Shown: one piece after another, positions 13,045 to 33,880 of the stretch
Numbering within the stretch: position 1 is the first letter of the stretch
How the letters are laid out: each line of letters starts with the position of its first letter
NCBI GenBank assembly: GCA_016926475.1
Contig: JAFGON010000073.1
Coordinates: 1 to 64,000 of the forward strand
Source: a candidate division WOR-3 bacterium
GTDB taxonomy: Bacteria > SDB-A
Direction of reading: 5' to 3'
Length of the DNA: 64,000 nt
The notes under the pieces: model-generated
Seen by the model: the letters and a program-made list of their open reading frames with translations, nothing else
What the model was told of the DNA's origin: nothing
Database searches by the model: none
Position numbers and translations under genes: made by a program

Positions 13045-14085
13045 TTACATTAAAGACTGAAATACTTCTTTTATGTCGATTTTTACCGGACACGAATCAT
13101 AACACCTCCCGCAACCAACACACCCAGTATCACCGAATTTCAATTTATCCCATAATATCTTACAGTAGTAACGGTTGCGTGTACGTTGTTCTTTTCTTTC
13201 TTTTGGATTGTGTCCTCCGGCCATCCTAAAATATCCGCTTAAAATACAGGAGTCGATTACCCTCATCCTCAAGCCTTTGTCGTCTTTTTGCAGGTCTTTC
13301 ACATTGAAACAAGTGCATGTAGGACAGACATAATTACAGGCTCCGCATGACAGACATCTGTCTGTTATTTCTTCGAGAACTTTTTCTTTCACAGGATTTG
13401 ACATCATATTTTCGAGAGCTATCTCCTTTGTGAAATTTGTGGCCACCGGCAAAGTCATGGCTTTTTCTTTTTTGGATTCCCAAAGTTTCACTTCATCGGT
13501 TTTAGCTTGCCTGAATAGAGAAGAGTTTTCTGAAATTAAAAAACTCCCCTTTTCACTGCCGACATTGACAAAATAATCCCCGTTTTCCATATCGGTCAAT
13601 TGAAGATCAAATCCATTTTCTGCAAACGGTCCTGTTTTCATAGTAGCGCAGAAACAACTCTCAGAAGGAGGAGTCAGGCACGCCATGGTTATTAAAGTCA
13701 ATTTTTCTCTCGCTCTATTGTAATAAAAGTCTATGAATTCGCGTTTTGAGAAAAAATTATCCGTGTATTTTATCGCGGCCGCGTCACAATTCGGCAAACC
13801 AAACAATACAGTCTCTTCTGTTTGGTCAACACTCCTGAGCTTGGTCGTATTCCCCACTTTTTCAAATTCTATCATCGGTTCAATTTGCCCGAACAAAACT
13901 TCCCTCGCTGAAGGCATTAAAGGTTTGTGGGCTTTTAGAAGTATGTTATGTTCCTCTTCTACGGGCAGAAAAGCTACATCACCAAACTCATTTTTTTGCA
14001 TGGCAAAAACTTTAGAGTTCTTTCTCATACCGGAGACAAATTTGAGAAGGTTCTCTTTCGAGATAATCAATCTATCGGCAGCCAT
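13045..14085 (-). CDS. Iron-sulfur subunit (HydB/sulfhydrogenase beta type) of formate dehydrogenase
   Basis: 346 aa. C-terminal dicluster ferredoxin region: CLSCGACNYVCPTCTC near residue 230 and CVGCGRCYDSCPVKI near the end. The N-terminal 200 residues match the beta subunit type of sulfhydrogenase/anaerobic sulfite reductase A, with FGLPNCDAAAIKYTD and additional Cys in SESCFC. Usually paired with the gamma subunit that follows here. In this locus the NiFe hydrogenase subunits are replaced by FdhA, so the complex should be a formate:NAD(P) oxidoreductase. It overlaps the last base of fdhA. Confidence 0.88.
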   Translation of the reverse strand: MAADRLIISKENLLKFVSGMRKNSKVFAMQKNEFGDVAFLPVEEEHNILLKAHKPLMPSAREVLFGQIEPMIEFEKVGNTTKLRSVDQTEETVLFGLPNCDAAAIKYTDNFFSKREFIDFYYNRAREKLTLITMACLTPPSESCFCATMKTGPFAENGFDLQLTDMENGDYFVNVGSEKGSFLISENSSLFRQAKTDEVKLWESKKEKAMTLPVATNFTKEIALENMMSNPVKEKVLEEITDRCLSCGACNYVCPTCTCFNVKDLQKDDKGLRMRVIDSCILSGYFRMAGGHNPKERKEQRTRNRYYCKILWDKLKFGDTGCVGCGRCYDSCPVKIDIKEVFQSLM

Positions 14086-16136
14086 TAGTTCTCACCTCCG
14101 ATTTTAACAGCGCAAATCTTATATTCAGGTATCTTTGCGACGGGATCGAGCGCGTTGTTGGTCAGTTTGTTCACCGACTGCTCGGCAAAATGAAATGGTA
14201 TAAATATGGTTCCTGGTTTTGTCATATCAACTACTTTTGCTTTGACGCGGATATCGCCTCTTCTCGATGAAACCCTGACTTCGCTTCCATTTTTGATCGA
14301 ATATTTTTTTGCGTCTTCAGGATTTATTTCAACATAACATTCAGGAACTTCTCTTTCGAGGGTAGATGTTCTCTTCGTAAGAGTTCTTGTATGGTAGTGA
14401 TAATATGTTCGCCCTGTGGTAAGGACAAGAGGGTATTCATCATCCGGCAATTCCGCGGGTTCTTTGAATTCTATCGCAGTGAAAAGCCCTTTGCCTCTTG
14501 AAAACTTTCCGTCTTTGTGCAGATAAGGAGTTCCGGGGTGTTCAGCAGTCGGACATGGCCACTGAAGTCCGAAGTTTTCTGACAGTCTTTCAAAACTCAT
14601 CCCATGGTAACTTGGCGTTAAAACAGCTATTTCGGAAAATATTTCTTGGGCAGTTTTGTATTTCATTTTGTATCCGCACTTCTCGGCTAAATCGCAGATT
14701 ATCTCCCAGTCTTGTTTGGCCTCTCCCGGAGGATCAATAGCTTTCCTGACTAGCTGGACTCTTCTCTCGGTATTTGTAAAAGTCCCGTCTTTTTCTGCGA
14801 AACTCGCACCGGGTAGAACCACATCTGCCATCTGGGCAGTCTCTGTCATGAATATGTCCTGAACTATCAGAAAATCCAGGGATTTTAAACCTTTCTCAAC
14901 GTGGGCAATATTCGGATCAGATACCATTGGATTCTCACCGAGAACATAAAGAACTTTAAGTTTGCCGTCTATAGCCAAATCAGGCATGTCTGTAACTGTC
15001 GTGCCAATTTCTCCTGAAAGGTCATCAACACACCATGCTTTTTCAAATTTATCCTTGATCTTTGGATCAGACACCGGTTGATAACCGGGATATACATTGG
15101 GAAGACCTCCCATATCACAAGCGCCTTGAACGTTGTTCTGCCCTCTCAATGGATTGACCCCAGTGCCTGGTTTCCCTATATTTCCAGTCAACATAGCAAG
15201 ATTCGCGCAAGATTTGACATTGTCCACACCAGTTGTGTGCTGTGTTATACCCATGCAGTAGAGTATCGCGGATTTTTTGCTTCTAGCGTAAATCCTCGCG
15301 GATTCAGCAAGATCTTTTGCGGGGATACCGGTAATTTTTTCAACGTATTCAGGAGTATATTTCTTTACGGTATTTTTCAATTCTTCAAAGTTTTCAGTGA
15401 AATTCAATGTGTATTCCTTATCTTCGAGACCTTCATCTATTATGACATTCATCATCCCGTTGATAAGGGCTACATCTGTACCAATTCTATGTCGTAAATG
15501 GTATTTTGCGTGTTTTGAGAGCTGAATGTTCCTTGGATCGGCGAGAATAAGGGTCGCTTTCCCATTTTTTACGGAATTGATTATTCTCGATGCTACAAGA
15601 GGATGCTGTTCAGTGGTGTTGGAACCGGTGACGAAAAATACTTCGGTATCTTCGAATTCCGTCACTGAATTCGTCATAGCGCCCGAACCCAATGTCGCGG
15701 CGAGACCCGCCACGGTAGAAGAGTGTCAAAGCCGAGCGCAATGATCTACGTTGTTTGTCTTGAAAACCGCTCTTGCGAATTTTTGAAGAATGTAGTTCTC
15801 TTCATTAGTGCATTTTGCCGATGCGAAAAAAGCGAGGCTTTTCGAACCAAACCTTTCAAAATGCTCCTTCATTTTTCCAGAGACGAGATTAAGAGCTTCT
15901 TCCCATGTAGCCTTTCGGAATTTTCCATTCTCTTTTATTAAAGGTTCAGTCAACCTATCCGGATGCTGGACAAATTCCGCGGCATTCCACCCTTTTACGC
16001 AAAGGCTTCCTTTGTTTACCGGGTGCTCTCTGCTTGGATAGACACCGTTTATCCTGCCGTCTCTAACTTTGAAGTAAAATCCGCAACCACATCCGCAATA
16101 GATACATGTAGTCAATACCCTCTTTTCACTAGACAA
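14085..16136 (-). CDS. fdhA: Selenocysteine formate dehydrogenase catalytic subunit
   Basis: 683 aa when TGA at 15728-15726 is read as selenocysteine (residue 137); otherwise the gene looks split in two. Residues 11-46 hold the 4Fe-4S motif Cys11-x2-Cys14-x3-Cys18-x27-Cys46. The active-site segment reads VDHCARL-U-HSSTVAGL, matching E. coli FdhH (Sec140 followed by His141). A SECIS hairpin follows at the right distance. The rest is a normal bis-MGD domain, with GVNPLRGQNNVQGACDMG, LGENPMVSDPN and a C-terminal cofactor-binding lobe. Length fits FdhH-type enzymes without an N-terminal NuoG extension. Starts at TTG behind AAGGAGG. Oxidises formate or reduces CO2 in the cytoplasm together with the beta and gamma subunits downstream. 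Confidence 0.96.
15696..15728 (-). promoter_or_regulatory. Selenocysteine UGA and bacterial SECIS element of fdhA
   Basis: UGA is at 15728-15726. Eleven bases later CGUGGCG (15714-15708) pairs with CGCCGCG (15702-15696), seven pairs including one G-U, around the loop GGUCU. The apical loop starts 18 bases after UGA and opens with GG, fitting the bacterial SECIS rules, and contains the same GGUCU core as the E. coli fdhF loop bound by SelB. Confidence 0.9.
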
Positions 16137-17335: not shown

Positions 17336-18424
17336 TCAGGTAATTAAAGTAAAATTTCTGCTCGCTAAATACTTAATAAGATTGTCTATATGGTTTTCCA
17401 ATTCACTCGCCACGCCAAGATAAGCCTCGTAGTCCTTTCCATATGGGTCCGCCACGTGTGTTTTTTTATGTGAAAACTCCGAAATGAGTTTCGTCTTGCC
17501 CTGACCTCCCGACTTCTGGACTTTTTTCTGAATTTTTGCGTCCATAGTCAATATCAGGTCAGCCTCTTCAATGTCTTTTTTGCAGATTTTTTTTGGTTTG
17601 CCGGAAATATCAACTCCGTATTTTTCCTTTATGACCCTTAAAGTTTTATCTGAATAGACAAAGCTTTTATTGTCCACCTTCAAGCCAGCCGAACTGACGT
17701 TTAATTTTATGTCTGTTTTTGTTGATTTAAGTTTTAGAATATATTCAGCCATAGGGCTTCTGCATGTATTGCCTTCACATACAAAACATATAGACAGAGG
17801 CTCATTAGTCTGATATTTGATGTCCATCGAAGTCAGATCGCCCAGGACAAAAGGACTTATTTCACCTTTCCTCAAAACAGTCATCTTTTTGCCTGTTGTC
17901 TCTATGACAGTCGATGCAGGTTTCGCCGGAAGAGATTTGGTCTTGTTCAGAAAGTGGAATTCTTCCTTTGAGAACATGGAAGACAGATGAGATAGATCCG
18001 CTGGATTGTTTTCCCCCGAAATATTCGCCGAAGTTGCGGGCATAATATCCAAAGCCTTGATAATATCCAAAGGAGCGGGTTTTTTGGGTACTCTAACGGC
18101 AATTTTACCGTTTTCGTCAACCAGATGTTCCGGGACCTTTTTGGAAGCTTTTCCGACAACAGTCAGTGAACCAGGCCAATACTTCTGGGTCAAACCGTAA
18201 ATACGAGGGTTGAAATTGTCGAAAAGCCTGTATGCCCTGTCAATAGAATATGTCAGTATAGGTACCCTTTTGTCAGGATTTCTTTTTTTCAGTTTTAAAA
18301 CTTTTTCATAAGCTTCCTTGCTTTCCGGGCTGAATGCAAAACCCCAGACAGTGTCTGTTGGTATCAAAACAACTTTTCCGGAAAGAAACGCCAAGAAAGC
18401 CTTAAGAGTGTTGCATTCAATCAG
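17336..18424 (-). CDS. TsaC/Sua5-type protein fused to low-molecular-weight phosphatase
   Basis: 362 aa fusion. Residues about 10-190 are a YrdC/Sua5 domain that makes threonylcarbamoyl-AMP for tRNA t6A37: IPTDTVWG, TSANISGEN and STVIETTG are visible. Residues about 205-350 are a low-molecular-weight phosphatase with P-loop CEGNTCRSPMAE and the general-acid loop VADPYG. The Thr before the second P-loop Cys is the residue that in B. subtilis YwlE gives specificity for phosphoarginine, where most tyrosine phosphatases have Ile/Leu. In Bacillus ywlC (Sua5) and ywlE are neighbours, so the fusion echoes that pairing. The start is most likely CTG at 18424-18422 within a CTGA overlap of purE; the first conventional codon, TTG at 18394, would cut the domain short. 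Confidence 0.85.
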   Translation of the reverse strand: MIECNTLKAFLAFLSGKVVLIPTDTVWGFAFSPESKEAYEKVLKLKKRNPDKRVPILTYSIDRAYRLFDNFNPRIYGLTQKYWPGSLTVVGKASKKVPEHLVDENGKIAVRVPKKPAPLDIIKALDIMPATSANISGENNPADLSHLSSMFSKEEFHFLNKTKSLPAKPASTVIETTGKKMTVLRKGEISPFVLGDLTSMDIKYQTNEPLSICFVCEGNTCRSPMAEYILKLKSTKTDIKLNVSSAGLKVDNKSFVYSDKTLRVIKEKYGVDISGKPKKICKKDIEEADLILTMDAKIQKKVQKSGGQGKTKLISEFSHKKTHVADPYGKDYEAYLGVASELENHIDNLIKYLASRNFTLIT

Positions 18425-18879
18425 TTTCGTAGAAAGCTCTCCCTGTATTCAGATAATCTTTTCTTTAAATCTTCATCGAAAAGAGCCAAAATCTCGACTG
18501 CGAGAATAGCGGCGTTTTTCGCTCCAGCATTGTCCAGGCTCATAGTCGCGACCGGAATGCCCGAGGGCATTTGAACAGTGGAAAGAATGCTGTCAATTCC
18601 TTTGAGTGGAGACGAGCTCACAGGTACGGCTATCACAGGTAAAATACTCCAGCTAGCGACAACTCCTCCGAGATGAGCGGCGTAACCCGCTATTGTAATT
18701 ATTACTTTAAAACCTCTCGATTGTGCGTTCTTAGCCAATTCCGCGGTTTTTTCTGGCGTCCTGTGCGCCGACGAGATCTCGAAAACGCTTTCTACGCCGA
18801 ATGTTTTTAAAGTTTCTATGACAGTGTCAGCTATTTCACTGTCGGATTTTGAACCGGCTATCACGAGGACTTCAGTCAT
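18421..18879 (-). CDS. purE: 5-(carboxyamino)imidazole ribonucleotide mutase PurE
   Basis: 152 aa. Purine biosynthesis enzyme that converts N5-CAIR (or AIR with CO2) to CAIR. Motifs: IAGSKSDSE at the N-terminus, ISSAHRTPEKT with the catalytic His, AGYAAHLGGVVAS and VQMPSGIPVAT. The usual GGAAHLPG loop is GYAAHLGG here. It overlaps the sigma factor gene by 8 bases and the tsaC fusion by the CTGA. No purK is next to it. Confidence 0.93.
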   Translation of the reverse strand: MTEVLVIAGSKSDSEIADTVIETLKTFGVESVFEISSAHRTPEKTAELAKNAQSRGFKVIITIAGYAAHLGGVVASWSILPVIAVPVSSSPLKGIDSILSTVQMPSGIPVATMSLDNAGAKNAAILAVEILALFDEDLKKRLSEYRESFLRN

Positions 18880-19819
18880 TAATCACCCCCAGAAGGTCTT
18901 TAAGTTTTTCTGATTTAGGCGATTGTCTTAACTTCACAAGCGCCCTATCCTTTATCTGCCTTATCCTCTCTCTCGAAACGCCTAATTCTTGACCGATTTT
19001 TTCTAAAGAACAAGGCGTATTATCCTGAAGCCCAAAATATTTTTTCAGGACAAGTTGTTCCCTGTCTGTCAAATCTCTCATCAGTTTGTTTATCTCCTGT
19101 TCTTCAGCCTGCTTTAAATAAGACTCTTCAGGAGAGAGGTAAGAACTCTGCAAGCTGTCTTTGAAATAGGGGCTTGAAGGATCGAGCGAGATATCCTTTT
19201 GCGCGTATTGATAAGATTCTTCGATATCCCTTATGTCTACATCGAGCATATCTGCCATTTCTTTTATCGTCATCTGAGAATGCTCAATATCCAATCCTTG
19301 TTCTCTGCTGCTCTTCAAAAGCTTTCTCAGTTTCGCCGCTCTGTTATAAGGCATATAAGCGATTTTCTGATTGGAGTATATGTACTGAAGCATTTTCTGC
19401 CTTATCCACCAAACGGCATAAGAGATGAATTTCGTACCGTAGTCAGGATCGAATCTGCTCGCCGCCTGAATCAGACCGGTGTTGCCTTCGTTGATTAAAT
19501 CCATGGTGATGTTATGACTCTTGTCGAACCCCAGGGCGGTCTTCACCACAAATCTCAAATTAGCCCTTACGAGTTTGTTTATTGCTTCTATCCTCTCCGT
19601 TGGATTGCCGTATTTAATTTTTTTTCCAAGCTCTTTCTCTTCATCCCTGGAGAGCATTTTTTCTTTTTTCAAGTCTTTCTCGTACATTCCAAAAGTGTCT
19701 TCCGATATTCTTGTTGAAGCTGGAAGTTTTTTTTCTTCAACGGGAGAAGCGGGTAAAAGATTTTGATCTTTAGCCGAAGGCAGAGCTAAAGAAGGCTTAT
19801 CCCTATCTTCTTTTGCCAA
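18872..19819 (-). CDS. RNA polymerase sigma-70 family factor (primary or group 2)
   Basis: 315 aa without region 1.1. Region 1.2/2.1 begins MYEKDLKKEKMLSRDEEKELGK; region 2 contains LINEGNTGLIQAASRFDP and FISYAVWWIRQKMLQYI; region 4.2 is SLEKIGQELGVSRERIRQIKDRALVKLR. The size is like primary sigma factors of FCB bacteria. Near-consensus -35/-10 promoters across the window fit its being the housekeeping factor, but a group 2 factor cannot be excluded. TTG start behind AGAGGT. Confidence 0.88.
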   Translation of the reverse strand: MAKEDRDKPSLALPSAKDQNLLPASPVEEKKLPASTRISEDTFGMYEKDLKKEKMLSRDEEKELGKKIKYGNPTERIEAINKLVRANLRFVVKTALGFDKSHNITMDLINEGNTGLIQAASRFDPDYGTKFISYAVWWIRQKMLQYIYSNQKIAYMPYNRAAKLRKLLKSSREQGLDIEHSQMTIKEMADMLDVDIRDIEESYQYAQKDISLDPSSPYFKDSLQSSYLSPEESYLKQAEEQEINKLMRDLTDREQLVLKKYFGLQDNTPCSLEKIGQELGVSRERIRQIKDRALVKLRQSPKSEKLKDLLGVIND

Positions 19820-19831
19820 AACAGACCTCTT

Positions 19832-21274
19832 TCATTCATATTCCCAAATATCGTCGCTTGAATTTGCCTCTCTGATTTTACCTTTCTCATCTACTAGAAA
19901 TATATTTCTTCCTTCGATTTTCTTTGAGACAGGCATGTCGAGGATCTCGATGGAAATTTCCGGAAAGTCCTGTCCGAAAGGGCCGAAACGAGACAGTGTG
20001 GCCAGGACATCATCGGTTATTTGATCTTTTTTAGCAGAAAAATCTATTCGGATTTTTCTGCGGAACAGTCCCCCCAAACCTGATTTTTCAAGAGCCTTGA
20101 AAAATTCGCCCACTTTCGAGCTCTCGATTTTTGCTCCGCAGGCTTTTTTGTGACCTCCAAAAGAGCTGAACAAGTTCTGTCGCTCTTCCAAAACCGACAG
20201 TACATCTCCATAAATCGTCCTTCCTTCAACTGTCTCAAAAGAATTTTCATCCAGAGCTCCGACGACGAAAGCCGGTTTGGTTTCAGAAAGGGTCAGCTTC
20301 GAGGCTATGGATCCGAGTATACCCCTGGGTGCATCTTTATCTCTAAAAACCACGAAATGTCCGATATTTTTTTTCATCGACTCCGCCTTCGAAAGAGCTG
20401 TTTCCCGCGCCTCAATCCATTTTCGGGATCTTTTCACCATGGACTCGGCGCTGGTGGTATCTGGACTGTCGGTTAAAAAGTTGAAAGAAAGAGATGATCC
20501 TTCTACTGACATATCCGATGATATTGGAGATATGATAATCCTCTTAATCTCTTCGGTGGTCTCGGGAACAGAGGATTCCTGAAACGAACACAAGAGGTCA
20601 ATAGCCTGAAATCTGAATTTGTCAAGTGCTTCAATTCCTCTTTTCACGATTGTTCTGTTTTCTCCAACCAGTGGAACCCTGTCGCTGATAGTCCCGAGAG
20701 AAGCGAGCAGCCATAAATAAGGATCCTGTGAAAATTCAAGGGCAAATTTCAAAGCAAGACCGCTTCCGGAGAGATCATCGAAAAGATAATCGCTGTCATG
20801 CCTGTGACAATTCACTATTATTCTGTCTCCAAGATAAGATGCGGGGATTTGGTGATGGTCGGTGACAACGAGCTTGACCCCTTCATCGGACAGATAAGAT
20901 GCTGCGACAGTATCCCTGCTGCAGCAATCTACGGTAATTACCAGATCCGTTTTGTTTTTCTGTATTTCTCTCTTCAAAGATTCGAGGTTCATTCCGATCC
21001 CTTCGGCTTTTCTGTCCGGTATATATGCCCTGACCTTAGCCGCTGATGAAGATAGAGCAAGGTATAAAAGAGAAGCGGCTGAAATACCGTCGCAATCCTG
21101 ATCCCCCCATATAAGTATCTGACCTTTGTTTTCCATGGTCTGCCTGATCACTTTCAAGGCTTTTTCAAATTGAGGAATGCCCGGGGAATCAAGCCAGATA
21201 TCTTCCGTGAGAAAATTTTCTGTCAGATTCCTTTTAGAAATCACCTTTTCGATGAACTTCTCAGCTGAAGGCAT
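19832..21274 (-). CDS. RecJ-like DHH-family phosphoesterase/exonuclease
   Basis: 480 aa, shorter than classic RecJ (about 570). Motif I is ILIWGDQDCDGISAAS (usually GDYDADG), motif II VITVDCC, motif III VVTDHHQIPAS, followed by the DHHA1 domain with SSFGGHKKACGAKI. Expected to be a Mn-dependent 5'-3' single-strand nuclease for repair, or a related nanoRNase-like enzyme. The first Asp spacing is intact, but Tyr-Asp-Ala is Gln-Asp-Cys. Overlaps scpA by 34 bases; SD GGAAG precedes ATG. Confidence 0.85.
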   Translation of the reverse strand: MPSAEKFIEKVISKRNLTENFLTEDIWLDSPGIPQFEKALKVIRQTMENKGQILIWGDQDCDGISAASLLYLALSSSAAKVRAYIPDRKAEGIGMNLESLKREIQKNKTDLVITVDCCSRDTVAASYLSDEGVKLVVTDHHQIPASYLGDRIIVNCHRHDSDYLFDDLSGSGLALKFALEFSQDPYLWLLASLGTISDRVPLVGENRTIVKRGIEALDKFRFQAIDLLCSFQESSVPETTEEIKRIIISPISSDMSVEGSSLSFNFLTDSPDTTSAESMVKRSRKWIEARETALSKAESMKKNIGHFVVFRDKDAPRGILGSIASKLTLSETKPAFVVGALDENSFETVEGRTIYGDVLSVLEERQNLFSSFGGHKKACGAKIESSKVGEFFKALEKSGLGGLFRRKIRIDFSAKKDQITDDVLATLSRFGPFGQDFPEISIEILDMPVSKKIEGRNIFLVDEKGKIREANSSDDIWEYE

Positions 21275-21960
21275 ATCTTCCCGTTAATTTTCCCCTGAGA
21301 AACCGAAAGAAAAGAATTTTTCGCGAGTTCGAGGACAGCCATAAAGCTGGCTATAATCCAGGGTTTGTCTTTTCTGTTGTCGAGAATTTCAGGAAATGGC
21401 ACCTCTCTTGAAGGGTTTTCGAGCATGATATCTGTTATCCTGTCGATTCTATCTTCAAGAGGGATTTGATCTATTATGTATTTAAGAGACTTAATTTTTC
21501 TATACCTTTGTGTTAGTTCTCTCGCCGCGTTGATTAAAAATATCACATCCATGAATTTCTCTTTATCCTCTATCGCCGGTCTTGCGGCAGGTCTTATCTG
21601 AATGTGTCTCAATCCTTCATTTTCCATAGCTTTAAGTCTGCTCGCCGAGTCTCTGAAAAGCTGGTAGATAAGAAGCCTTTGAGTCAGTTCTTCTTTAGAA
21701 AGATCAGGCTCGGAAATTTCTTCGCTTCGAGGTGAAGGCAACAAAGCTCTGGCTTTCATCCTCATCAATGTCGAAGCCATGTCGAGAAAATCGACCGCGA
21801 TTTCCATGTCGAACTCTCTCATCACGTTTATATAAGCTAAGTACTCGTCTGTGATGTGAGAAATAGGTATGTCGTATATATCGAGCCGATCCCTTCTGAT
21901 AAGGTATAACAAAAGTTCGAGAGGCCCTTCAAAAATTTCTAATTTTACAGAAAATCCCAT
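21241..21960 (-). CDS. scpA: Segregation and condensation protein A
   Basis: 239 aa kleisin of the SMC-ScpAB complex. N-terminal FEGPLELLLYLIRRDRLDIYDIPISHITDEYL is diagnostic, with VDFLDMASTLMRMKARALLP after it and a C-terminal winged-helix-like segment. It bridges the SMC heads for chromosome organisation. scpB, often next to it, is not in the window; recJ follows instead. SD AAGGG precedes the ATG. Confidence 0.93.
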   Translation of the reverse strand: MGFSVKLEIFEGPLELLLYLIRRDRLDIYDIPISHITDEYLAYINVMREFDMEIAVDFLDMASTLMRMKARALLPSPRSEEISEPDLSKEELTQRLLIYQLFRDSASRLKAMENEGLRHIQIRPAARPAIEDKEKFMDVIFLINAARELTQRYRKIKSLKYIIDQIPLEDRIDRITDIMLENPSREVPFPEILDNRKDKPWIIASFMAVLELAKNSFLSVSQGKINGKICLQLRSSSKR

Positions 21961-21997: not shown

Positions 21998-24148
21998 TCA
22001 CGAAAAGATTCTTTCGGGATAACATTTATCGCAAACCGGGCACCACCAATGCCTGCAAGGTTCGCATTTAACGAGTTTTTCGCCGCAATCCGGGCAAGTT
22101 TTGGATGTCGATTTATCAATATCAGGTTCTTTGGCATAGATAGGTTGAACGTATTCAGAGCAGTTTTCACACCAGTATTTGTTATACTTACTTACATAAG
22201 TTGTATTGCCGCCGCATTTAGGGCAGAGAACGGCGTTTTCTTCATTTTTTGAAAGAGGCTTTTCTTCGACAATCGGTTTGGAAGGTGGAACTACTTCAAT
22301 TTTCTCAAGCCCGAAATCGAGCGGCATGTATTTTTCACAGTTGTCGCACCAGTATCTTTGATATTGCTCAATAAACCTGACTTTTTTACCGCAAAACGCG
22401 CATTTCAAGCCTTCATCTTCCGTGGATACTTGCTCAACAGCCGCTTCTAAAATTTCTTCATCCTCCTCTTGAGGACTGACTATTTCTATCTCTTTGATGT
22501 TTATTGCCTCTTCAGGGGCAGTGTCTTGTTTTTTTCCAAAGCCAACCGGCATATACTCTCCACAGGTGTCACACCAATACCTGTCATATTGTTCGATGTA
22601 TCTTGTATTTTTATTGCATTTAGGACAGATAAGTGCCACACCCTCTGATTCACCGGCTCCGACCACAGAAATCTGCTCGGCTTCATCGAGGTTCTCGACT
22701 TCTTCATTTTCAAATTCTAGGTCGAGATCGGCTGTCTCAGACCTTTTAAAATCCTCAACTCGCTGGCTTACATCCAATGCTTCCGAAGTCGCTTCTTGTT
22801 CGGAGGTAAGATTCTCACTCTCCGGCATTGGAGCCACGGTTTCCTCCTCGAGAGGAACCGAAAGTTGCTCTTCTGTCAGGGAAATAGTGCCCAGATCAAC
22901 AGCCTTTTCCTTGGATTGGATAATTTCATCGGAAACTGCCGAAGCAGTCTCTTCCTCTCGTGAAACATCTGTCTTATCGGGTTCATCGCCAACGGTGACA
23001 GGAGAACCCTTGAATCCGACCGGCATATACTCTCCGCAGTTGTCGCACCAAAACCTGTCATATTGAGCAATATACCTCACTTCTTCTTTGCATTTGGGAC
23101 ACCTGAGAACAAGTTGCTCTTCAACGTCCGTATCATCTTCTGAGGGCGCGACAACAGTTTTTACAAAATCCTGCGTTAAATCTTTTTGAACATAGGAAAC
23201 CTGTTGATCCAAATCCTGGACAACAGTCGCTGTCTCCTCTTCTACGGGTTCTTGGGCATCAATGGTATCTTCCACTCTGCCAGTTTCGATAACTTCGGCT
23301 TCCTCAACCTGATCGAAAGCCAGTTTCACAGGTTCATCGGAGGTCGGTTTTTCAATACTCTCGGGGATTATCTCTATCTTGTGTTCCAGTATTTCAGCTT
23401 TCTTTTCAGTCGAGATTTCCGATTCTAAACCAACATATTCCAGGCATTTATCGCACCAATAGCGGCCGTATTCTTCTATCCTTCTCAAAGGAGCTCCGCA
23501 CTTCGGACAGTTCTTTTCCGACACTTCCGCTTTTTCTTCAGCAATTTCCTTTGAAACCGACGGGTATGATTCTTCCTTTTCAGAAGCATATTCAAGGCAG
23601 ACATCGCACCACCATTTTTTATACTCGTCTATGTATCGTAAAGGGGATTTGCAAACAGGGCATGTTCTTTCTTCTGGTTTGTCAGAGGGAGTTTCTTTTA
23701 ATTGCACTGATTCTGGAACCGAGACGTTTTCTTCCTCCATTTCCGAATCTGTATCACTGGAGCTTTCTACAGGTTTCCCAAAGTTGACCGGCATGAATTC
23801 TGCACACATATCACACCAGTATCTGTCGTATTCTTCGAAATATTGAAGTTCATAATTGCATACAGGACATTTAAGCTTGTGTTCAGTTTCCAGCGGGACA
23901 GTTATTTCTTCAACAGGGCTCTCTTCAACAGCTGTTTCTGATATCTCTTCTATGATTTCAGACTCGGCTTCCTTGCCGAATTCCGGTTCCATATATTTTG
24001 CGCAGGTATCGCACCAATACCTATCGTAGGGTTCAATATATCGCAGAAAACTGCCGCAATCCGGGCACTTTAGAGCTTGATCCACTTTAACTGAATCCGA
24101 ACTTTTGAGGTCTTTATCATTGAAAGGTATATCGGAATCATCGAACAT
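21998..24148 (-). CDS. Protein with nine zinc-ribbon repeats and acidic linkers
   Basis: 716 aa built of nine copies of one motif: C-P-x-C, 14 residues, W-C-x2-C-x-E-Y, consensus CPKC....RYIEQYDRYWCD followed by CGEYMPVGFG. First Cys of the copies are at residues 28, 94, 163, 214, 350, 508, 583, 642 and 685. Every copy keeps exactly 14 residues between its CxxC pairs. Linkers of about 30-135 residues are Glu-rich and probably disordered. The ninth copy, at the C-terminus, has three extra Cys and lacks the YDRYW core. No signal peptide or membrane segment, so cytoplasmic. Each unit should bind one Zn; nine identical ligand sets suggest metal storage, a scaffold, or multivalent nucleic-acid/protein binding. 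Function unknown. It heads the scpA-recJ-sigma operon, with SD GGAGG. Confidence 0.85.
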   Translation of the reverse strand: MFDDSDIPFNDKDLKSSDSVKVDQALKCPDCGSFLRYIEPYDRYWCDTCAKYMEPEFGKEAESEIIEEISETAVEESPVEEITVPLETEHKLKCPVCNYELQYFEEYDRYWCDMCAEFMPVNFGKPVESSSDTDSEMEEENVSVPESVQLKETPSDKPEERTCPVCKSPLRYIDEYKKWWCDVCLEYASEKEESYPSVSKEIAEEKAEVSEKNCPKCGAPLRRIEEYGRYWCDKCLEYVGLESEISTEKKAEILEHKIEIIPESIEKPTSDEPVKLAFDQVEEAEVIETGRVEDTIDAQEPVEEETATVVQDLDQQVSYVQKDLTQDFVKTVVAPSEDDTDVEEQLVLRCPKCKEEVRYIAQYDRFWCDNCGEYMPVGFKGSPVTVGDEPDKTDVSREEETASAVSDEIIQSKEKAVDLGTISLTEEQLSVPLEEETVAPMPESENLTSEQEATSEALDVSQRVEDFKRSETADLDLEFENEEVENLDEAEQISVVGAGESEGVALICPKCNKNTRYIEQYDRYWCDTCGEYMPVGFGKKQDTAPEEAINIKEIEIVSPQEEDEEILEAAVEQVSTEDEGLKCAFCGKKVRFIEQYQRYWCDNCEKYMPLDFGLEKIEVVPPSKPIVEEKPLSKNEENAVLCPKCGGNTTYVSKYNKYWCENCSEYVQPIYAKEPDIDKSTSKTCPDCGEKLVKCEPCRHWWCPVCDKCYPERIFS

Positions 24149-24182: not shown

Positions 24183-24211
24183 TTGCATATTTTCGACTAA
24201 TAATATATACT
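24183..24211 (+). promoter_or_regulatory. Promoter of dapH operon
   Basis: TTGCAT (24183-24188), 17 bases, TATACT (24206-24211). The predicted start of transcription is about 24 bases before the dapH ATG, where no clear SD is seen. It overlaps the divergent promoter of the zinc-ribbon gene, so the two cannot easily be occupied together. Confidence 0.6.
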
Positions 24212-24231
24212 GTCGTCAATTAAGTTGTCAA
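24202..24231 (-). promoter_or_regulatory. Promoter of the nine-zinc-ribbon gene and its operon
   Basis: Minus-strand TTGACA (24231-24226), 18 bases, TATATT (24207-24202); the ATG is about 55 bases further. The -10 hexamers of this and the dapH promoter share bases 24206-24207. Confidence 0.55.
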
Positions 24232-24241
24232 GAAAATAACC

Positions 24242-24940
24242 ATGAATACAGAAGAAATAATAAGATACATATCGGAAAATCCCAGAAAAACACCTGTTAA
24301 AGCCTATATAAGAGGAAAGCCCAGAAATTTGGAAAACAGTAAAATCCGAATTTTCGGAGAAGGCAATTTTTGGATTGTCTTCGGGGACTACAAAGATGTA
24401 TTATCGTTTCTGGAAGAGAACAAGGATTTCATAACCGATAGACATATCGAAATTTCCGCCCGAAATTCTGCAGTTCCAACCGCTGATATTTCAAAATTCA
24501 ACGCAAGAATAGAACCTGGCGCCATAATTCGAGAAATGACCCAAATTGGTGAAGGTGCTGTCATAATGATGGGAGCCGTGATAAACATCGGAGCAGTCAT
24601 CGGTTCTAAGACAATGATAGACATGAATGCGGTGATAGGCGGCAGGGCTGTTGTTGGCGAAAAATGCCATATAGGAGCAGGCGCGGTAATAGCGGGTGTC
24701 ATAGAACCTCCTTCCGCTAGACCTGTTGTAATTGGAAAAGGAGTTTTGGTTGGAGCCAACGCTGTTATACTGGAAGGCGTCGAGGTCGGCGAAGGTGCAG
24801 TTGTTGCCGCTGGAGCTGTCGTAATAGACGACATACCCGGAAATGAAGTTTGGGCGGGAGTTCCGGCAAAATTTATAAAAAAAACTGATTCTAAGACTTT
24901 GGAGAAATCAAAAATCGTCGAAGCCCTGAGAAATCTCTGA
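24242..24940 (+). CDS. dapH: Tetrahydrodipicolinate N-acetyltransferase DapH
   Basis: 232 aa. N-terminal DapH-specific domain (residues 1-90) and a left-handed beta-helix of hexapeptide repeats (IGEGAVIMMGAVINIGAVIG, HIGAGAVIAGVIEPPSARPV, EGVEVGEGAVVAAGAVV), ending AGVPAKFIKK. It acetylates tetrahydrodipicolinate in the acetyl branch of lysine/diaminopimelate synthesis. The next gene, a class III aminotransferase that overlaps it by one base, should catalyse the following transamination. DapH-type acetylation is known chiefly from Firmicutes and scattered other phyla. Confidence 0.9.
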   Translation: MNTEEIIRYISENPRKTPVKAYIRGKPRNLENSKIRIFGEGNFWIVFGDYKDVLSFLEENKDFITDRHIEISARNSAVPTADISKFNARIEPGAIIREMTQIGEGAVIMMGAVINIGAVIGSKTMIDMNAVIGGRAVVGEKCHIGAGAVIAGVIEPPSARPVVIGKGVLVGANAVILEGVEVGEGAVVAAGAVVIDDIPGNEVWAGVPAKFIKKTDSKTLEKSKIVEALRNL

Positions 24941-32434: not shown

Positions 32435-33880
32435 CTATTCAATTTGATCCAACCATTTCTTAAAAGCCTCTAATCCTTCTTGATTGTAATTGAATTCTTG
32501 TCTTTCCTCCGCTTCAGAATCCTCCTTTTCACCCTTTTCTTCTTCCGGTACAAGAATAGCCATATGCCGCTCGATTTTCTTTAATTCTTCCAAAGTTTCT
32601 GAAGCTACTTGGCTGAAAATCAGGCTTTCCGTGTCCTCTGTCGATTTTTCCGTTTCCAGTTCTACTTCTTCTTTTTCGTTTTCACTTATGTCAAAGAAAT
32701 CTTGTTCCTTCGGCAACTGATCAATTTTTTCTTGTTCTGTCTCTTCGTAAGCTCTATCCCCTGAGTCAGAAACACTCTCGCCTGTTTCGGTATTTATAAC
32801 GTTTTGCTCTTTGACGTCCTTTTCCTGAGTCTGAGAGATCAAATCCTGGACTCTTTTGACATCTTCTGATAATTCGGGATGATCGGGAAGTAGCTTTTCA
32901 TAAATAGAAAGAGCCTTTTCATAATTCCGCTGTTTTTCGTATATACCCGCCATTGTCACGCTTTCAATTTCACCTTTATAGAGAGGAATCCCTTCTTGAT
33001 TGTCCTTTATCTCTTTCTCCTCAACCTCTTCAAAATTATCTTCAGGCTTGAATAAAGCTTCGTCCTCAACGGCGGTCTGACCCATGCGAATATCTTCTGT
33101 ATCCTGAGGTTTTTCGTCTTTCTGTTTTGGTGTATCTGTTCTTACGTTTGCTTCCACCTCTTTTTCAATGCTGTCTTCAAGCTCTTTTTCGAGCATCTCG
33201 ACTTCAAGGTCGAGTATTATTTCATCGTTGGGTTGATCCATAACAGAATCACCAGGGAGTCCCGTCCCTTGAATTTCTTCTTCTTCTTTGAAGATTTCTT
33301 CTATCTGCGCTGTTTTCTCTATAGGAAGCTCCAAATCGAGAGACAGGTCATCTCCGGTTTTTCCCGTCTCCTCCTCGATAAAAATCAATTCTTCTTCGGC
33401 TTTTTCAGGGTGTTGCTCTGAAGTCTCCATCTGATGTCGCATCTGATCGCGAACGTTTTTCTTTTGAATAATGTCTTCTATTTCAATCATAATTTGCTGT
33501 ATGCTTGAATCAAAAGGATTTAAGTCGAGTAGTCTTTTATAAGAATCAAGCGCTTTTTCGTATCTACCTGATTTATAAGCTCCCTTGGCGACTTTTTGAA
33601 GAGCGAGCAGGTTTTCTTTGTCCTTTTCCAATACCCTTATGTAAATATCTAACGCTTTATCCTCTTCGCCGTTTTTTTCGTAACATTTACCCAAAACCAT
33701 GAGACCCGAGATATAGTCCTGATGCTTTTCAACCCCTTTTTCAGCGATTTTTATCGCCTGTTCGGTCATATCCTCCGATAGATAAGCATCGGCAAGTCTC
33801 GCGAAGATAAGAGAATCGGGTTCTGCGTCGTATTTTTTCTGCAGTTTAGAAATTTCGGGGCTCGGTGATTTCGAAGCCAT
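32435..33880 (-). CDS. Acidic TPR protein
   Basis: 481 aa, cytoplasmic by appearance (no signal peptide). N-terminal TPR units over about residues 10-130 (ARLADAYLSEDMTEQAIKIA, VLGKCYEKNGEEDKALDIY, GAYKSGRYEKALDSY), then a long Glu/Asp-rich low-complexity region, another TPR near residue 310 (AGIYEKQRNYEKALSIYEKL) and a second acidic tail. It is probably an assembly scaffold; no specific partner is evident. Placed between a lipoprotein gene and efp in one operon. SD GGAGG precedes the ATG. Confidence 0.75.
   Translation of the reverse strand: MASKSPSPEISKLQKKYDAEPDSLIFARLADAYLSEDMTEQAIKIAEKGVEKHQDYISGLMVLGKCYEKNGEEDKALDIYIRVLEKDKENLLALQKVAKGAYKSGRYEKALDSYKRLLDLNPFDSSIQQIMIEIEDIIQKKNVRDQMRHQMETSEQHPEKAEEELIFIEEETGKTGDDLSLDLELPIEKTAQIEEIFKEEEEIQGTGLPGDSVMDQPNDEIILDLEVEMLEKELEDSIEKEVEANVRTDTPKQKDEKPQDTEDIRMGQTAVEDEALFKPEDNFEEVEEKEIKDNQEGIPLYKGEIESVTMAGIYEKQRNYEKALSIYEKLLPDHPELSEDVKRVQDLISQTQEKDVKEQNVINTETGESVSDSGDRAYEETEQEKIDQLPKEQDFFDISENEKEEVELETEKSTEDTESLIFSQVASETLEELKKIERHMAILVPEEEKGEKEDSEAEERQEFNYNQEGLEAFKKWLDQIE

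Follow-up and report, generated by a model that had tools for sequence, protein, structure and literature searches.

A nine-fold array of archaeal-type zinc ribbons in a candidate division WOR-3 bacterium, a possible multivalent protein-docking scaffold

The nine-ribbon protein

The window, by which we mean the entire stretch of 64,000 nucleotides analysed here, encodes a protein built from nine C-x2-C-x14-C-x2-C units, predicted to be zinc ribbons; it is a bacterial nine-fold variant of the multi-ribbon proteins that are common in archaea, and the array itself is real. The bacterial nine-fold array is what is new here; the archaeal multi-ribbon proteins have no model in the family libraries searched. 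We propose, with a probability of roughly 0.45, that the array protein is a multivalent protein-docking scaffold. The gene and its parts are as follows.

21998..24148, minus strand, nine-ribbon protein gene (716 aa, pI 4.27, 82 kDa, 39 Cys)
24002..24067, minus strand, ribbon 1 (aa 28-49)
23804..23869, minus strand, ribbon 2 (aa 94-115)
23597..23662, minus strand, ribbon 3 (aa 163-184)
23444..23509, minus strand, ribbon 4 (aa 214-235)
23036..23101, minus strand, ribbon 5 (aa 350-371)
22562..22627, minus strand, ribbon 6 (aa 508-529), the sole exact RYIEQYDRYWCD, modelled with AlphaFold2
22337..22402, minus strand, ribbon 7 (aa 583-604)
22160..22225, minus strand, ribbon 8 (aa 642-663)
22001..22096, minus strand, ribbon 9 and C-terminal end (aa 685-716), a divergent Cys-rich cap with 7 Cys

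The reading frame starts with ATG preceded by GGAGG, and its N-terminal SDIPF is common to the same-genus relatives. The units begin at aa 28, 94, 163, 214, 350, 508, 583, 642 and 685, the two Cys pairs are separated by 14 residues in nine of nine units, and the linkers between units (12-127 aa) consist to 21% of Glu. This is the architecture that the first-pass annotation had described, and it is borne out by the translation and by residue shuffling, which produced at most two units in 20,000 shuffles (mean 0.006) against the nine observed and thereby rules out a chance pattern of Cys. The ribbons are electrically neutral on balance; all of the net charge, -95, lies in the linkers.

Conservation and selection on the units

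The claim of a near-fixed core holds in part. A comparison of 37 units from four genomes shows a gap of 14 throughout, no variation in the four Cys or in the Trp before Cys3, and near-invariant Tyr14 (32/37) and Tyr25 (31/37); however, the core RYIEQYDRYWCD is exact in unit 6 only of the nine units in the window protein, and the ninth unit lacks it, having instead a different, Cys-rich ribbon (CPDCGEKLVKCEPCRHWWCPVCDKCYP; CPDCGEKLVKCEPCRHWWCPVCDKCYPERIFS). The invariant Trp and the near-invariant Tyr residues support the earlier suggestion, made from sequence, that selection on the unit extends beyond the metal ligands.

Between the window protein and its counterpart in genome G002, which represent species of one genus, 75% of the ribbon residues are identical and 36% of the linker residues; therefore the beads are what selection keeps. 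Within the genus, the best match of a unit in the other species is the unit at the same position in all comparisons but one, so each position has its own ortholog and the beads are maintained individually. Between the two genera the positional matching of inner units fails, while the cap is still last, as it is in four of four genomes. The order of units thus differs between genera, and exact geometry is therefore not important. Inner beads thus persist individually over short times, with turnover of the array on a longer scale; this is how a string of docking sites, rather than a rigid machine, would be expected to behave.

Copy number and relatives of the array

The array is present in all four genomes of this phylum examined, which belong to one family. 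The relatives found by whole-protein search lie in a candidate division WOR-3 genome (JAFGIG010000037, isolate Zod_Metabat.185), in 'Desulfuromonas sp. SDB' (LKUE01000226) and in a third same-genus genome. These three other genomes have 9, 4+5 and 10 units, the 4+5 being one array split across two contig ends. The copy number is real, because the units of the window are at most 79% identical to one another in DNA and because the independent assemblies carry such numbers; the assembly artefact that had been considered as a source of the repeats is thereby ruled out. As to the 'Desulfuromonas sp. SDB' record, genome kinship places it in the family of the window genome, and the public name therefore looks wrong.

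Predicted fold and affinity to named ribbons

The zinc ribbon reading of the first-pass annotation agrees with the AlphaFold2 prediction for unit 6, a beta ribbon bearing two CxxC knuckles (mean pLDDT 88.6). The prediction for units 7-9, made from only three sequences, consists of three ribbons with low-confidence linkers between them (mean pLDDT 63.8, pTM 0.27). A structure search with the unit gave no Foldseek match at E <0.1 and no VIA-align match at Z >=5. The structural neighbours (RPA, RNA polymerase subunits, ribosome, PriA and Nudix) represent general zinc-ribbon similarity only, and therefore the fold alone gives no function.

Sequence comparison is more specific. When separate alignments are compared by hhalign, bacterial and archaeal units match at 99.4% (E 5.9e-22), followed by archaeal eS31/S27ae (95.8%, 32.6 bits), L37ae (93.9%, 28.0 bits) and TFIIB (74.6%, 20.7 bits); of the three named ribbons compared, ribosomal eS31 thus appears to be the nearest. 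It is also the first match in a profile search of PDB sequences (E 2.3e-4) and shares CPxCG...DRxxCxxCxxY with exactly x14, although it is a single ribbon of a ribosomal protein, the resemblance is weak and the score of L37ae is nearly equal. The cut-off of the eS31 model PF01599 is not reached (12.8 bits for the full-length protein vs 22.3; best single-unit E 4.5e-4, among 10 of 22 units). Common descent of the unit and the eS31 ribbon is suggested by these similarities, which are not conclusive.

No single unit scores above any Pfam or NCBIfam cut-off, and no model in either library describes the archaeal-type unit well. The full protein exceeds the cut-off of PF07191 (Zn_ribbon_6, a double zinc ribbon) by summing. 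With this 67-position model (cut-off 25), the adjacent pairs 8+9 (26.3 bits) and 3+4 (26.4) lie just above the cut-off and a pair of genome G003 reaches 34.8 bits, whereas no single unit passes, the pair 8+9 of G002 is not listed at E 0.1, and the spacing between ribbons varies freely in the array protein. The literature searches returned no description of the unit or the array and no functional study, and the unit falls into no named Pfam or NCBIfam family; the possibility, raised at the outset, that the repeat belongs to a described family with known function is not what was found. Three other candidates were set aside: the PADLOC defence protein HEC-08, whose best stretch covers 79/358 positions and only a ribbon pair; the ribbon fused to heliorhodopsin in archaea, whose spacing is x17 and not x14 (PMC8612252); and TackOD1, which is a different Cys-rich domain (PMC5847659).

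Because of eS31, the main rival to a docking scaffold is an array that binds RNA or ribosomes, in which the ribbons keep an eS31-like contact with nucleic acid and bridge RNAs, ribosomes or RNA polymerase. The x14 spacing shared with the closest named and closest solved relative, the many structural neighbours among the ribbons of RNA polymerase, ribosome, PriA or RPA, and a sigma factor in the operon are all consistent with it. However, neutral ribbons on linkers of charge -95 (pI 4.3) are not suggestive of nucleic-acid binding, the closeness of the L37ae score means that the eS31 link may be general zinc-ribbon similarity, and a common fold is no proof of function. We consider this reading rather unlikely.

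Distribution of the unit in bacteria, archaea and viruses

A single-unit profile (A2) was searched against a set of 386 bacterial genomes with, for the most part, a single genome per family. Strong matches are limited to nine genomes, four of which are of this phylum; the other five belong to two families and have one unit each. In the two proteins read and scanned, from families f185 and f72 (loci L034 and L036), the unit and a DnaA-like AAA+ domain form one fusion protein, which a CheY-like gene follows, and the Caldiserica locus L027 encodes a similar protein. Their ribbon is nearly identical to that of the array (CPYCGGPIEYIEEYDRYYCFKCRRYAPPDYG), the difference being that a single ribbon resides in an ATPase beside a CheY-like gene. 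The DnaA-like ribbon protein and the CheY-like gene look like an undescribed signalling module; the DnaA-like proteins of the three loci also have a conserved-looking C-terminal region with no Pfam match. Weak matches in other bacterial genomes (E 2e-5 to 1e-3, over 15-30 positions) most likely come from small ribbons of no relation. The distant weak matches of the first genome search, in topoisomerase I, Trm112-like and McsA-like proteins, are unrelated ribbons and were rejected.

In archaea the same unit is widespread: it occurs in 165 of 400 genomes, a sample drawn as relatives of one archaeal MAG and hence biased, so that 41% is not an archaea-wide frequency. The profile already contained five archaeal units, and the archaeal search alone is no independent test. 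The archaeal YxxYxRYYC arrays resemble the window protein in unit, x14 spacing, multiple copies and acidic or Pro-rich linkers; they differ in having at most seven units per reading frame among the loci read, usually a Tyr before Cys3, other gene neighbours and no Cys-rich cap that was noticed. As proteins with 4-7 copies on such linkers are common in archaea, the earlier impression of a design without precedent does not stand.

The archaeal contexts are diverse. Arrays of 3-6 units that carry strongly hydrophobic segments close to the C-terminus are predicted to be TM-anchored; two of this type that were tested gave a match to a SAP-like helix pair below threshold (15.0-15.4 bits vs a Pfam cut-off of 23.9). 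Soluble all-ribbon proteins have 4-7 units (L072, L090, L096, L091 and L191), with 5-7 in the arrays of L072, L096, L178 and L191, and the array half of the N-terminally extended L178, six near-identical ribbons on Glu-rich linkers, has nearly the design of the window protein. Single units follow a long coiled coil (L093) or stand past a TM segment at the C-terminal end of a surface protein (L186), and two units lie inside an ATPase-like protein (L190, genome G518), the domains of the last two proteins being read by eye. The conserved neighbours of soluble arrays at L127-L130 (genomes G547, G440, G427 and G487), named by eye, are three pilin-like genes and two cysteine desulfurases, joined at three of these four loci by an FKBP-type isomerase.

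Given that the unit is widespread among the archaeal genomes sampled and rare among the bacterial ones, this bacterial lineage probably acquired it from archaea and then multiplied it. The residue before Cys3 in the archaeal comparison set is Tyr in 122 of 146 units and Trp in 20, a figure that includes at least two bacterial cap units present in the set by accident; a Trp that is invariant in the 37 bacterial units and a minority in the archaeal set fits expansion from few ancestors. A viral origin is rejected, as no relatives were present in IMG/VR and only weak matches in PHROGs.

Gene neighbourhood

Pfam confirms the annotated operon: scpA, a RecJ-like gene and a sigma-factor gene lie in it with the array gene.

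21241..21960, minus strand, scpA (Pfam SMC_ScpA), 37 bp downstream of the array gene
19832..21274, minus strand, DHH-family RecJ-like gene (Pfam), overlapping scpA
18872..19819, minus strand, sigma-70-family factor (Pfam) with regions 2 and 4
24242..24940, plus strand, dapH-type tetrahydrodipicolinate acyltransferase (DapH_N and hexapeptide), a divergent, conserved neighbour
24202..24231, minus strand, candidate sigma-70 promoter of the operon (TTGACA-18-TATATT, 11/12, a consensus match only)

In four of four genomes the array gene is situated between the divergent dapH-type gene and scpA, with the DHH/RecJ-like gene and the sigma-70-type factor following in the same order as far as the loci reach; purE, also identified by Pfam, and sua5 are next in the three loci whose sequence extends that far. 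The 93-bp gap between the array gene and dapH contains the candidate promoter.

Three further genes of the window are recorded for their own sake. At 17336-18394 (minus strand), a Sua5/YrdC domain and a low-molecular-weight protein-tyrosine-phosphatase-like domain are fused in one protein. At 14085-16136 (minus strand), a formate-dehydrogenase/molybdopterin oxidoreductase-like gene is split by an in-frame TGA (15726-15728) whose context, DHCARL-U-HSSTVAGL, is typical of a selenocysteine site. Selenoprotein synthesis in this organism is probable; Rfam at gathering thresholds listed no SECIS element. At 32435-33880 (minus strand), a TPR-like protein has long Glu-rich stretches in a style like that of the ribbon-protein linkers.

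The position of the array gene directly upstream of scpA in all four genomes raises the question of a chromosome-associated factor acting in segregation or repair together with ScpA/SMC or the RecJ-like protein, and the SAP-like helix pair of some archaeal arrays and the DnaA-like ATPases among the bacterial relatives point in the same direction. We regard this as unlikely: the four genomes are one family, in which gene order may be simply inherited, purE and sua5 are also in the cluster, the SAP match stays below the Pfam cut-off, and the archaeal neighbours differ.

A metal buffer or store of metallothionein type, or a thiol redox buffer or sensor, is very unlikely in spite of 39 Cys, nine predicted sites and the cysteine desulfurase genes near archaeal soluble arrays, because the conserved aromatic residues and the low Cys density speak against it: a metallothionein-like protein is Cys-dense with no conserved non-ligand core, while this one has 5.4% Cys, an invariant Trp and near-invariant Tyr, about 80 residues per metal is a poor density, storage needs neither these residues nor position-specific units, and no inverted repeat like a metalloregulator site was found in the 93-bp promoter gap. 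Of the roles in chromosome, transcription and Zn homeostasis that had been suggested from the gene order, the last looks the least likely.

Proposed function

In the docking scaffold that we favour, eight archaeal-type, eS31-like zinc ribbons and a Cys-rich C-terminal cap ribbon would be strung on long acidic linkers that are probably disordered. Each ribbon is predicted to fold independently, presumably around one zinc ion, and would act as a protein-binding module through its conserved Tyr and Trp beyond the ligands. The acidic string would keep the ribbons soluble and apart, so that several partners could be held together; the scpA-recJ-sigma operon, the one clue to them, hints faintly that these partners might be parts of the chromosome or transcription machinery.

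On the one hand, several observations argue for the docking scaffold. Neutral units on linkers at -95 do not favour nucleic-acid binding, and the models combine a confident single ribbon with low-confidence linkers between 7, 8 and 9. The occurrence of the unit on DnaA-like AAA+, ATPase-like and membrane proteins and in TM-anchored arrays is the promiscuity expected of an adaptor. The gene order is conserved in four of four genomes, and the beads are conserved, individually maintained and equipped with Trp and Tyr beyond the ligands. On the other hand, the closest named relative, eS31, is ribosomal and would leave room for RNA binding; the order of units differs between the two genera; the model of units 7-9 comes from three sequences and is of low confidence; and the neighbours of soluble arrays in archaea are unlike the bacterial ones, so that context names no common pathway.

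A bolder version, which we hold to be quite unlikely, is that an archaeal adaptor ribbon became, in a bacterial phylum, a nine-site scaffold with no known counterpart, made from one operon with ScpA and a sigma factor, which would hold several machines and thereby couple chromosome organisation to transcription.

The wider importance lies with the archaeal unit, which occurs in about 40% of the genomes of the biased archaeal sample, frequently in many copies per protein, and which the family libraries searched do not model. Many uncharacterised archaeal proteins would be explained if the domain were named and one ligand identified, and the bacterial nine-fold array offers a clean test case, because it contains almost nothing else.
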